Positions 60,074 to 64,000 of a DNA stretch of 64,000 nt are shown here, piece after piece. Origin of the DNA: Vibrio palustris. GTDB lineage: Bacteria > Pseudomonadota > Gammaproteobacteria > Enterobacterales > Vibrionaceae. The notes under the pieces were generated by a model that searched no databases, was not told the origin of the DNA, and was given only the letters and a program-made list of their open reading frames with translations. Every line of letters starts with the position of its first letter. Positions within the stretch are counted from its first letter, which is position 1. The position numbers were made by a program, and so were the translations under genes. The stretch is from the NCBI RefSeq assembly GCF_024346995.1, contig NZ_AP024887.1, positions 1,922,001-1,986,000 on the forward strand, given 5' to 3'.

Positions 60074-60538
60074 ATGATAAAAATCAATGACTTAGCTGAC
60101 TACATCATCACGAAGCTCAGTGAAGGTGGAGAAAGCCTTAACAACCTTAAGCTTCAAAAACTGACTTACTACTGTGATGCTTGGCATTTGGCTTTCTACG
60201 ATAAAAAACTGGTAGATACTGATTTTCAAGCGTGGATTCACGGGCCAGTATGCCGAGAACTCTACGACCGATTTTCTTCTTCTAAATCTCTTTATTCTGA
60301 GGTTTATTTAAGCGATTGTGCTGATGACTTTAATATGGACTCGGTAAGTGCATATTCCTCGCATATTGACACTATATTAGAGGCGTACGGTAAGTTCTCC
60401 GGAGCACAGCTCGAAGAAATGACACATAGAGAAAAACCTTGGCTAGAAGCAAGACAAGGTTATCGTTCAAGCCAACGTTGTGAAGAGTATCTCGACAATT
60501 CAATCATCAGAGATTACTACAAAAGCCGTTTGTCCTAA
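60074..60538 (+). CDS. Panacea-domain (DUF4065/SocA-like) antitoxin
   Basis: The 154-residue protein matches the Panacea domain along most of its length: ISxxDLADYII-type start, NNLKLQKLTYYCDAWHLAF (residues 22-40), DFQAWIHGPVCRELYDRF, and a late IDTILEAYGKFSGAQLEEMTHRE with PWLEAR. Panacea is a promiscuous antitoxin domain that neutralises many unrelated toxins by direct contact. Good ribosome site (AGCAGGATT). The next gene starts four bases after its stop, which fits a toxin-antitoxin pair. Confidence 0.88.
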   Translation: MIKINDLADYIITKLSEGGESLNNLKLQKLTYYCDAWHLAFYDKKLVDTDFQAWIHGPVCRELYDRFSSSKSLYSEVYLSDCADDFNMDSVSAYSSHIDTILEAYGKFSGAQLEEMTHREKPWLEARQGYRSSQRCEEYLDNSIIRDYYKSRLS

Positions 60539-60542
60539 CTAA

Positions 60543-61271
60543 ATGAAGCCCGTATTAGAACATACTCCATCAAACAACAAACCAGTCTTGGTAGATGTTG
60601 GTGAAAAAAAGTGGACCTTTTCTTTTCAATATTGGAAACAAATCGAGTTTTTTGGACTAGATAAATCTAATCCATCTTGGTTTGTTTCTTTAATTGAGAA
60701 ACTAAAAGACCTATCAGGCAAAGATGTTAAAAGCTTCGTATCAACGGGTGAACAACGCGATGCTTGGCGGTATCATAATATCGATTGGAATCAGACAAAT
60801 ATTCCTATTCAACGTGAGGATTTAGACTGGTTAGATAAAGATTACAGAGAAAATGAAGCAGAATACCCAATTGTTCAGTTCCAAGTTTCACAAGCACTTG
60901 GGCGCGTAGTAGGGTTCTGGGACGAGAACAGTGTATTCAATATACTGTTACTAGATCCACTACATAATATTCAGCCTTCAAAACGATACAACTATAAAGT
61001 TGATCATTGTAGCCCTTTATCATGCAACTACTCTGCCTTACTCTTTTCTATTGATACATTAAAAAGAGGTAATTATTGCTCTTCCTCTGATTGTGGTTAT
61101 CACCAAGAAATTTCGAACTTATCTATAGATAATGCTTATACAAATGTTGTGATTCATTTTTTAGATGACACTGAAAAAGCAGAATCTGAAAAGTTAATCA
61201 GTGAAAAGAAGGCTCGTGATGAGAAAGAAATATTTGAAGCAGGACTTCTATTTCTATCTGATGATGAATAG
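60543..61271 (+). CDS. Unrecognised protein, candidate toxin partner of the Panacea antitoxin
   Basis: I do not recognise this 242-residue protein. It has no signal peptide or membrane segment. Residues about 115-145 contain VQFQVSQALGRVVGFWDENS then VFNILLLDPLHNIQPS, a strand-rich motif that recalls (weakly) small proteins ending in a GFxxxNxFxxLWxDPxH pattern. About ten residues from 158 contain a Cys-rich CSPLSCNY, with SSSDCGYH following. The C terminus (205-242) is a charged helix (EKAESEKLISEKKARDEKEI). It starts four bases after the Panacea gene without its own ribosome site, so translation is coupled. By position it should be the toxin; activity unknown. Confidence 0.7.
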   Translation: MKPVLEHTPSNNKPVLVDVGEKKWTFSFQYWKQIEFFGLDKSNPSWFVSLIEKLKDLSGKDVKSFVSTGEQRDAWRYHNIDWNQTNIPIQREDLDWLDKDYRENEAEYPIVQFQVSQALGRVVGFWDENSVFNILLLDPLHNIQPSKRYNYKVDHCSPLSCNYSALLFSIDTLKRGNYCSSSDCGYHQEISNLSIDNAYTNVVIHFLDDTEKAESEKLISEKKARDEKEIFEAGLLFLSDDE

Positions 61272-62107: not shown

Positions 62108-63445
62108 ATGAGTATCCCACAGGGATTAAGAGGAAGATATGCGTATCATTTTACTTTGGTCGACAACCTAGAATCGATCATTGATAGTGGTCTGCTGTGT
62201 ACAAACCTAAAGAATGAACGCGGGATATCTCATGAAAACATCGCAGAGCAAGTTATCCAGGGCAGAAGAAGCACTATGCCTGTGCCCTGTTCGGGAGGCA
62301 ATTTTGTTCACGATTACGTTCCTTTTTATTTTTCCAAAAAAACTTCCATGCAGCTCGGTGTTATTAATAAAAAGAATGTAGACCAACCTTTACTTATATA
62401 CTTTGCCATTCCTATCGAAATTATTGAGCAAACTGCTGGCGTCGTGTTCTCAGATGCTTCTGCAAACACAGATACACCGCCAAACTTCTACAACGTATTC
62501 TCAGTAAACATGCTGAATTCTTTAAACTGGGATGCGATTGATGACAAAAAATGGGGATGTCCAACTGATGATTATCGACATCAAAAAATGGCAGAGCTAC
62601 TTGTTCCTAACGGTGTTCAAATTTCCGAAGTGTCTTACATTGTTGTTTGGAATGAATGGATAAAGAAAGAGGTTGAAAAAATATTTCAAGCCAAAAGCAT
62701 TCAGCCCCCTACAATCAAGTATGATGAAGGTCATTACTACATTAATTTTTACGAAGGCGGTAGAAAGTCTATCGTAACAGGTCCAAGATTTTTAAAGCAT
62801 GAAGTAGAAAAGACGATTTCAGATATATGTAAAAGCATTAATATCCCTAAGAAATATGGGAGTGCACGCGCCGCACTAGATGCTATAGCATATGATTTTT
62901 CATCTATAAAAGAGCTTGACGATATCGATGGATTAAGAGCTAGTTACGGGCCTCATAGTGATGATGTTGGTACACACAGTAAAAAAGTGGCAGATGGACT
63001 TGCTCAGTTTCCCGAATACAATGACTTATCTAATCAGGACAAAGAGATTGTTCGTTTGGCAGCGTATTTTCATGATATTGGGAAAGGGCCGAAGTCTCGA
63101 TGGGGACAAGACGGAATGACTAAGGCTGATAACGATCATGCGGTTAAATCATTGCCAATGTTAAAACGAATCCTAACTGAAGATATTGGTGGGCTTAGCG
63201 AAGACAACATAAGGAAAATTGTAATTTTAGTAACTTATGACGATCTTATTGGAGATATAGTTGCTAAAGGGCGCGATGAGAAGCAGTTAGTTGATATAAT
63301 TAAAGATGAAAATGATCTAAAGATGCTTGTTGCTATTGCTAAGGCAGACATGAATTCAATCAATATGGCTTGGGTGATGATCCATAATCAATCAATTGAA
63401 TGCTTGAAAAACAGAGCTCTTCAAAAAATAGAGTGTGATAGCTAA
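62108..63445 (+). CDS. darT: DarT-type ADP-ribosyltransferase fused to an HD phosphohydrolase domain
   Basis: The 445-residue protein has an N-terminal DarT (DUF4433) domain (about 1-195): YHFTLVDNLESIIDSGLL, GGNFVHDYVPFYFSKKTS, FYNVFS, and HQKMAELLVPNGV with the catalytic Glu (E163). A linker and a C-terminal HD domain (about 283-430) follow, with H290 in THSKKV, H322-D323 in YFHDIGKG, and a late Asp in AKADMN. DarT modifies thymidine in single-stranded DNA as a toxin or anti-phage effector. In family members I recall a conserved Arg in FYFAPRSPM; here the place holds Lys77-Lys78. AAGGAG precedes the ATG. darG follows with overlap. Confidence 0.85.
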   Translation: MSIPQGLRGRYAYHFTLVDNLESIIDSGLLCTNLKNERGISHENIAEQVIQGRRSTMPVPCSGGNFVHDYVPFYFSKKTSMQLGVINKKNVDQPLLIYFAIPIEIIEQTAGVVFSDASANTDTPPNFYNVFSVNMLNSLNWDAIDDKKWGCPTDDYRHQKMAELLVPNGVQISEVSYIVVWNEWIKKEVEKIFQAKSIQPPTIKYDEGHYYINFYEGGRKSIVTGPRFLKHEVEKTISDICKSINIPKKYGSARAALDAIAYDFSSIKELDDIDGLRASYGPHSDDVGTHSKKVADGLAQFPEYNDLSNQDKEIVRLAAYFHDIGKGPKSRWGQDGMTKADNDHAVKSLPMLKRILTEDIGGLSEDNIRKIVILVTYDDLIGDIVAKGRDEKQLVDIIKDENDLKMLVAIAKADMNSINMAWVMIHNQSIECLKNRALQKIECDS

Positions 63446-64000
63446 TGCTAGAATTTGTTAAAGGTGATTTCTTTGATTTTGATGCTGACATCAGGGTTAA
63501 CACGGTCAATTGCGTGGGCGTTATGGGCGCTGGCGTAGCACTGGCTTTCAAGAATAAATACCCTGAGATGTTCAAAGAATATGTACGGCAATGTAAGGCA
63601 AATGAAATAGCCCCCGGAAGACCTTGCGTATGGAAACAAGGAGATATGTTTTCGAAACAGATTGAAATCATAAATTTCCCCACAAAGAATCATTGGAGAA
63701 AGCCCTCTGAGTATGAGTATATTGAAGATGGACTTATCTGGCTTTCCAATTACTTAAAGAATAAAGAGGGCTTGACAATAACATTGCCTGCTCTTGGATG
63801 TGGACATGGGGGACTAGATTGGGAACGAGTTAAGAAGCTAATCACAAAATACCTTAAAGAAACGTCAAACAAAATTCTTGTATTTGAACCAGAATCTTCG
63901 AAGAAGGCTGGTAAAAAAGTATCAATTCCGTCTAAGAAAATATTTGAACTGGAGAACCTAGGTGTATACGCTGTAGCTAAAGATGAAAATAATTATCCAT
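63445..64000 (+). CDS. darG: DarG-type macrodomain antitoxin, N-terminal part (cut by window end)
   Basis: Starts at an ATG overlapping the darT stop by one base (TAATG). The 185 visible residues begin MLEFVKGDFFDFDADIRVNT and show VNCVGVMGAGVALAFKNKYP, then LPALGCGHGGLDW, the ADP-ribose-binding loops of a macrodomain. DarG removes the ADP-ribose that DarT puts on DNA and also binds DarT. The gene runs past the right edge, so its C-terminal part cannot be judged. Confidence 0.9.
   Translation, partial: MLEFVKGDFFDFDADIRVNTVNCVGVMGAGVALAFKNKYPEMFKEYVRQCKANEIAPGRPCVWKQGDMFSKQIEIINFPTKNHWRKPSEYEYIEDGLIWLSNYLKNKEGLTITLPALGCGHGGLDWERVKKLITKYLKETSNKILVFEPESSKKAGKKVSIPSKKIFELENLGVYAVAKDENNYP

Follow-up and report, generated by a model that had tools for sequence, protein, structure and literature searches.

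The closest described relatives of the system considered here are the two DarTG classes and a group of defence systems with DprA-family antitoxins. In DarTG2 the toxin gene precedes the antitoxin gene in an operon: DarT2 has the DarT fold with a catalytic Arg and Glu, and the antitoxin DarG usually joins a macrodomain with a catalytic Lys to a DarT-binding domain. DarTG1 pairs DarT1, of the same superfamily and with the same catalytic Glu and Arg, with a NADAR antitoxin. DprA homologues serve as antitoxins in shosTA, syrTA and rqlHI (PMC9122126). How infection upsets the balance between DarT and DarG is called an unknown mechanism in PMC11481870. The locus described here lies at the end of a 64,000-nucleotide stretch of Vibrio palustris (contig NZ_AP024887.1, positions 1,922,001 to 1,986,000; the whole stretch is called the window below), and it consists of two genes: a predicted toxin in which DarT is fused to an HD phosphohydrolase domain, and a predicted antitoxin in which a macrodomain is fused to a DprA/ShosA-like domain. 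Profile searches, alignments and structure models establish four predicted domains, conserved putative catalytic residues, the gene order and co-inheritance of the parts. The module is likely an undescribed kind of DarTG system, and we give a probability of roughly 0.5 to the reading that it works in the manner of DarTG, as a toxin-antitoxin pair that defends against phages.

The pair shares with DarTG2 the DarT fold and its catalytic Arg and Glu, the macrodomain with its catalytic Lys and the toxin-then-antitoxin operon, but it carries an HD domain on the toxin, a DprA-like domain where DarG has its DarT-binding domain, and a Ser in place of the base-contacting His/Asn. It differs from DarTG1 in that the antitoxin is a macrodomain protein and not NADAR, and from ShosTA and PsyrTA in that the DprA-like part is joined to a macrodomain and has a DarT-HD protein as its toxin; the phosphoribosyltransferase partner that DprA has in the P2-hotspot system (PMC9122126) was not found in the toxin here. 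No DarT-HD fusion or macrodomain-DprA DarG is among the literature matches listed (subscription papers and preprints were mostly outside their reach), and in the accessible text of PMC9503650 the sole mention of “HD domain” is in the reference list. The features compared are these (window positions; counts refer to 51 diverse HD-bearing DarTs):

62108..63445, + strand: predicted toxin gene, DarT-HD fusion, 445 amino acids (ATG start, open frame)
62144..62740, + strand: DarT ADP-ribosyltransferase domain, residues 13-211 (PF14487)
62267..62269, + strand: codon of R54, aligned with catalytic R51 of DarT2 (Arg in 49 of the 49 with a letter)
62459..62467, + strand: codons of S118-A119-N120, at the base-contacting position (His119 of DarT2, Asn104 of DarT1)
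62594..62596, + strand: codon of E163, catalytic Glu by alignment (E160 of Taq DarT; 51 of 51)
62825..63442, + strand: HD phosphohydrolase half, residues 240-445
62975..62977, + strand: codon of H290, HD ligand (50 of 51)
63071..63076, + strand: codons of H322-D323, the HD motif (51 of 51)
63137..63139, + strand: codon of H344, HD ligand (51 of 51)
63239..63241, + strand: codon of D378, the fifth ligand position (Asp in the window; 27 of 51 have His and 24 Asp)
63347..63349, + strand: codon of D414, last HD ligand (51 of 51)
63445..64000, + strand, continuing past the window: predicted antitoxin gene, macrodomain plus DprA/ShosA-like domain (380 amino acids, L002:7446-8588)
63445..63900, + strand: macrodomain, residues 1-152, with N22 and K81 (PF01661)

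The toxin gene is the last complete gene of the window. An earlier note on this DNA had proposed that one gene joins DarT to an HD domain, and profile search bears this out, with both domains over their Pfam cut-offs: PF14487 matches residues 13-211 at 133.7 bits (cut-off 22.5) and PF01966 (HD) residues 288-366 at 33.8 bits (cut-off 22), and the HDIG model TIGR00277 is also above its own cut-off. NCBI names the protein DarT, and its DarT equivalog model NF048013 is narrowly missed (139 bits, cut-off 150). A PHROGs viral family without function, phrog_32804, covers residues 1-444 at 465 bits, and PHROGs holds the antitoxin too as a family of unknown function. The structure predicted with AlphaFold2 has a mean predicted local distance difference test score (pLDDT) of 90.8. 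Conservation was read in two sets: close relatives (119 proteins of 400-480 amino acids, among the 120 listed of 650) and the diverse set of 51 HD-bearing DarTs from fetched loci. E163, H322, D323, H344, D378 and D379 are conserved in 119 of the 119 close relatives, H290 in 118, and D414 in 118 with one gap, so that DarT-HD is a real family and not a product of chance. The Pfam HD family was found in 101 of the 120 listed relatives; the other 19 lack the Pfam match but keep the ligands. The description as a variant DarTG with a real fusion is upheld, and the neighbours of the pair are typical of defence genes. The same note had raised the possibility that the fusion is a well-studied common form: common it is, but no study of it is among the literature matches listed.

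The HD half has the metal-binding His, His-Asp and Asp that had been read from the letters (H290, H322-D323, H344, D378 and D414), and across the diverse set the site follows the pattern H-HD-H-[H/D]-D, with an almost invariant HDIGKGP stretch. PF01966 was matched by 18 of 18 diverse members. With the HD domain of tRNA processing enzymes (3wfo, 3wfp) and with HDIG proteins it has in common the fold over 180 residues and the HDIG motif; unlike in the tRNA processing enzymes, it is fused to DarT, and Pfam found no nucleotidyltransferase domain. This type of HD half was also sought outside DarT proteins: among 120 listed relatives of residues 240-445 (of 246; proteins of other lengths were not candidates), 118 carry Pfam DarT, and the two exceptions, P0241, whose start lies close to where the DarT domain ends, and P0243, whose start is unmatched, may be partial or broken genes. 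Because the ligands are fixed, the HD half is taken as a candidate second enzyme, the “two-headed toxin” of the earlier note, which stays a hypothesis. Two other views of it were set aside: a decayed ornament is unlikely, H322, D323, H344 and D414 being kept in 51 of 51, and a Cas3-type nuclease, though still conceivable, was not adopted, the matches being weak (12.7-18.8 bits).

The antitoxin gene overlaps the stop of the toxin gene by one base, at 63445, in agreement with the overlap noted before. The window end cuts it, and the full darG beyond the window, which the earlier note had pointed to, was obtained from the same genome (locus L002). The macrodomain (PF01661, 67.1 bits) has K81 and N22, which are kept in 43 of 43 partners; loss of the equivalent K80 and N22 hurt Taq DarG most (PMC5179494). 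The second half, where DarG usually has its DarT-binding domain, has a predicted DprA/ShosA-like (SLOG) fold. A profile of 38 canonical DarG C-termini found none of 42 DprA-type C-termini at E 10, and Pfam has no NADAR domain in the antitoxin to E 1. A DprA-like antitoxin domain apart from DarT-HD was looked for in 369 genomes of the class: the one strong match, at 276.7 bits, was that of the window itself, and eight others were weak, at 19-43 bits. Since the window ends within the antitoxin gene, the DprA-like half, its link to HD and the Ser at the base position had escaped the earlier note.

When DarT genes were classed by their own architecture and that of their partner, the 51 HD-bearing genes had a macrodomain-DprA partner in 43 cases, a canonical partner in four, a partner cut by the contig end in two and none in view in two (L067, and L074, where the contig ends). 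The 44 HD-less genes had a macrodomain-DprA partner in none: 39 had a complete partner lacking it, two a cut one and three none in view. The count drops duplicates (L001, L028, L104, L105) and rows that score 25 bits or less against the DarT-domain profile (among them L022-L027, L097-L100 and the first of two DarTs in L013), and keeps the near-copies L002/L029, L071/L076 and L066/L077. HD-bearing rows come from scans for HD-DarT motifs and three plasmid matches, HD-less rows from Pseudomonadota samples and four Bacteroidota tandem partners, so the two sets differ in taxonomy. In a tree of DarT domains (n=91) all 49 HD rows fall on one side of one branch (support 94/94), and in a quick macrodomain tree one branch splits the 42 with from the 42 without a DprA-like domain (Shimodaira-Hasegawa-like approximate likelihood ratio test, SH-aLRT, 95). 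Over 39 pairs, distances between DprA-like domains follow those between HD domains once DarT is controlled for (partial r 0.64, bootstrap 0.50-0.76), and do not follow those between DarT domains once HD is controlled for (0.01, -0.20 to 0.24); with the antitoxin's own macrodomain, HD constant, the value is 0.30. Such co-variation is the pattern expected if the DprA-like domain docks on, or works with, the HD half, and is not proof of it.

The DarT half differs from the described classes at the position that touches the base. N104 of DarT1 coordinates the target base and corresponds to H119 of DarT2 (PMC11543638). In this column the HD-bearing DarTs have Ser in 47 and Ala in three (n=50 with a letter; Ser118 in the window), whereas the HD-less DarTs (n=44) have His in 22, Asn in 20 and another residue in two; the next Ala anchors the alignment (38 of 44 HD-less, 49 of 50 HD-bearing). 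We infer from the alignment that the base pocket has changed in the HD clade, and the Asn two residues on (N120 in the window, Asn in 49 of 50 HD-bearing DarTs) might take over the base contact. The catalytic positions are retained, with R54 and E163 equated to R51 and E160 of DarT2 by alignment plus a numbering offset; R53, which adjoins R54, is replaced by Asn in L044 and L067. The Lys reported in place of the usual Arg of the FYFxPR motif is real (FYFSKK, K78; the aligned DarT of Thermus sp. 2.9 has Arg there). The suggestion that it alters the choice of base or donor did not survive: position 78 varies among the 51 HD-bearing DarTs (K14, R13, L8, T6, I4, V2, M1, C1, gap 2), K78 is by alignment not the equivalent of R51, H119 or E160 of DarT2, and Lys78 as a specificity switch was rejected on its variability.

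A mechanism can be proposed from these parts. From what is known of the families, the DarT half would ADP-ribosylate a base of single-stranded DNA, and the macrodomain would reverse this. Because the DarT-binding domain is replaced and DprA homologues serve as antitoxins, the DprA-like half would be what brakes the toxin directly, at its HD half or close to it. During infection the DprA-like domain might, by analogy with DprA, attract single-stranded DNA of the phage, which would loosen the brake, and HD would then hydrolyse a phosphoester in a nucleic acid or nucleotide and so make the damage harder to undo; these last two steps are the weakest of the scheme. A still bolder version, which is tentative and on balance doubtful, would make the module a third DarTG class, with a two-enzyme toxin, a new base pocket, an HD domain that processes the modified strand or adduct, and a DprA-like brake that senses single-stranded DNA. 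If the third-class version were true, the system would be triggered by the DNA of phage replication itself, and this would explain how DarTG detects an infection. An eraser macrodomain joined to a relative of the single-stranded-DNA-binding DprA is a concrete candidate for the sensor. The toxin, with its strictly conserved, putative second enzyme site and an altered residue at the base contact, suggests chemistry beyond the two described DarT classes.

Several observations weigh against the reading of the module as a DarTG-like system with a DprA-like brake. The window antitoxin scores 17.1 bits against Pfam DprA (PF02481), below the cut-off of 29.6, and matches neither PsyrA nor ShosA in PADLOC; the sequence of the DprA-like domain diverges fast (21% median identity), and R308 and other fold positions are not fixed. 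The antitoxin structure model is weak in the macrodomain (pLDDT blocks of 50-90; predicted template modelling score, pTM, 0.59). With the base-contacting residue changed, thymidine, or even DNA, is not assured as the target. The HD DarTs form one clade, so the HD/DprA-like link may be one event kept since, and macrodomain distances likewise follow HD (0.49) more closely than DarT (0.25), so that DarT distances may simply be noisier. Four Bacteroidota loci (L046, L047, L048, L055) have a DarT-HD, then an HD-less DarT, then a canonical DarG; as they lack a DprA-like partner, the HD half can exist without that domain. At the base-contacting position these tandem loci have Ser-type DarT in the HD-bearing gene and His-type DarT in the HD-less gene next to it, and the two DarTs thus need not be redundant.

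Three other explanations were weighed. The module could be a functionally ordinary DarTG2, acting on thymidine in single-stranded DNA with reversal by the macrodomain, with HD and DprA-like parts that serve to adjust stability or regulation; this seems improbable, though it deserves to be taken seriously, given that the base-contacting His of DarT2 is Ser here, that DarG's DarT-binding domain is missing and the DarT equivalog model missed, and that in four loci the two forms occur next to each other and differ in their base pockets. An unlikely alternative makes the HD half a docking platform for the DprA-like domain, its metal being structural, and the DarT half the sole enzyme. Co-variation of the DprA-like domain with HD and not DarT, a partner type that follows the presence of HD, and the alternation of His and Asp at ligand 378 would all fit a platform; yet a platform need not keep H322, D323, H344 and D414 in 51 of 51 together with a near-unchanged HDIGKGP, and the HD ligands are also retained in the four tandem loci, where no DprA-like partner is seen.

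Rather unlikely, finally, is an HD half that acts on a small nucleotide, such as NAD(P)+, ADP-ribose, a deoxynucleoside triphosphate (dNTP) or a cyclic signal, and so feeds or controls DarT or senses infection: no nucleotide-specific family was matched above a cut-off, and the second domain of the antitoxin is DprA/ShosA-like in fold.

DarT-HD is widely scattered. A genome scan found 39 loci in eight phyla: Pseudomonadota (17), Bacteroidota (10), Bacillota (5), Thermodesulfobacteriota (2) and one each in Myxococcota, Acidobacteriota, Chloroflexota and Methanobacteriota (an archaeal bin), with one unassigned; many are metagenome bins, whose taxonomy can be misassigned. DarT itself occurs in 25 of 369 Gammaproteobacteria genomes and 26 of 398 Pseudomonadota genomes, and of the fetched matches only the window's has an HD half: the HD-bearing form is rarer than HD-less DarT in these samples. 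The toxin tree points to horizontal transfer, since its near neighbours belong to different families and orders. The pair is found on plasmids and near phage tail-fibre genes (L068). In the human faecal isolate E. coli LR-28 it lies, at L116:8001-10447, in a prophage remnant with Cox- and OgrK-type genes (P2-like by our reading), and in E. coli APEC O2-211 it adjoins an integrase and an excisionase at icd. The form known from a Klebsiella plasmid is present whole (97.5% identity) in three of 5426 E. coli genomes, with any match in 11; at least 80% of the Enterobacter form occurs in none of the 5426, and 11 have a macrodomain piece. Whole native copies in E. coli prophage remnants make the system testable in laboratory strains.

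Next to the window pair, past the window end, lies a plasmid-like block on the minus strand (L002:8968-15895) with TrbL, a type IV secretion system (T4SS)-like gene, a relaxase and RepA. Three proteins of this block are 94-96% identical in Vibrio salilacus (L038), where the adjoining DarT-HD is only 48% identical: the cargo has been exchanged and the carrier kept. In L041 the macrodomain-DprA protein forms the N-terminus of an HmaB-like methylase (427.5 bits), whereas the window copy stands alone; HmaA (643.1) and HmaC (435.3) genes surround it, and the Hma operon (L041:992-13061) also holds DarT-HD. In L043, L044 and L059 the part covered by the contigs shows a long gene fusion of this kind (the Hma scan covered L041 only). 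Hma is a member of the DUF499-centred, BREX-related defence group in a 2026 survey (PMC12839542), the available text of which does not contain “DarT”. In L077 the pair adjoins SIR2 and HerA.

Promoter-like sites (12, against 12.1 in shuffles) and terminator-like sites (3, against 2.5) are about as many as in shuffled sequence, and a look for tRNA genes near the pair and for short-range inverted repeats reported none. DarT-HD and antitoxin genes are separated by about 720 bases in Citrobacter (L037:11332-12050) and about 580 in E. coli (L115:5149-5731). The Citrobacter gap has no open frame of more than 50 amino acids wholly inside it; a non-coding RNA there was considered and dropped, with no Rfam match to E 0.1, and by eye a short frame at its start resembles a decayed macrodomain start. 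Among other DarT arrangements, L018:1456-2652 has DarT and macrodomain in one chain of 398 amino acids, like the Thermosipho africanus DarTG chain 7omu, and in two Gammaproteobacteria loci (L013:893-2106, L085:839-2106) a single DarG is preceded by two consecutive HD-less DarT genes that differ from each other. A Colwellia bin has, upstream of the pair, a gene of 1334 amino acids (L042:4320-8324) with an LmuA-like N-terminus (Lamassu, 55.1 bits). Just upstream of the toxin gene in the window, at 60074-61271, a SocA/Panacea antitoxin-like gene (PF13274, 73.2 bits) is followed by a 242-amino-acid protein without a Pfam match, possibly a further toxin-antitoxin pair.
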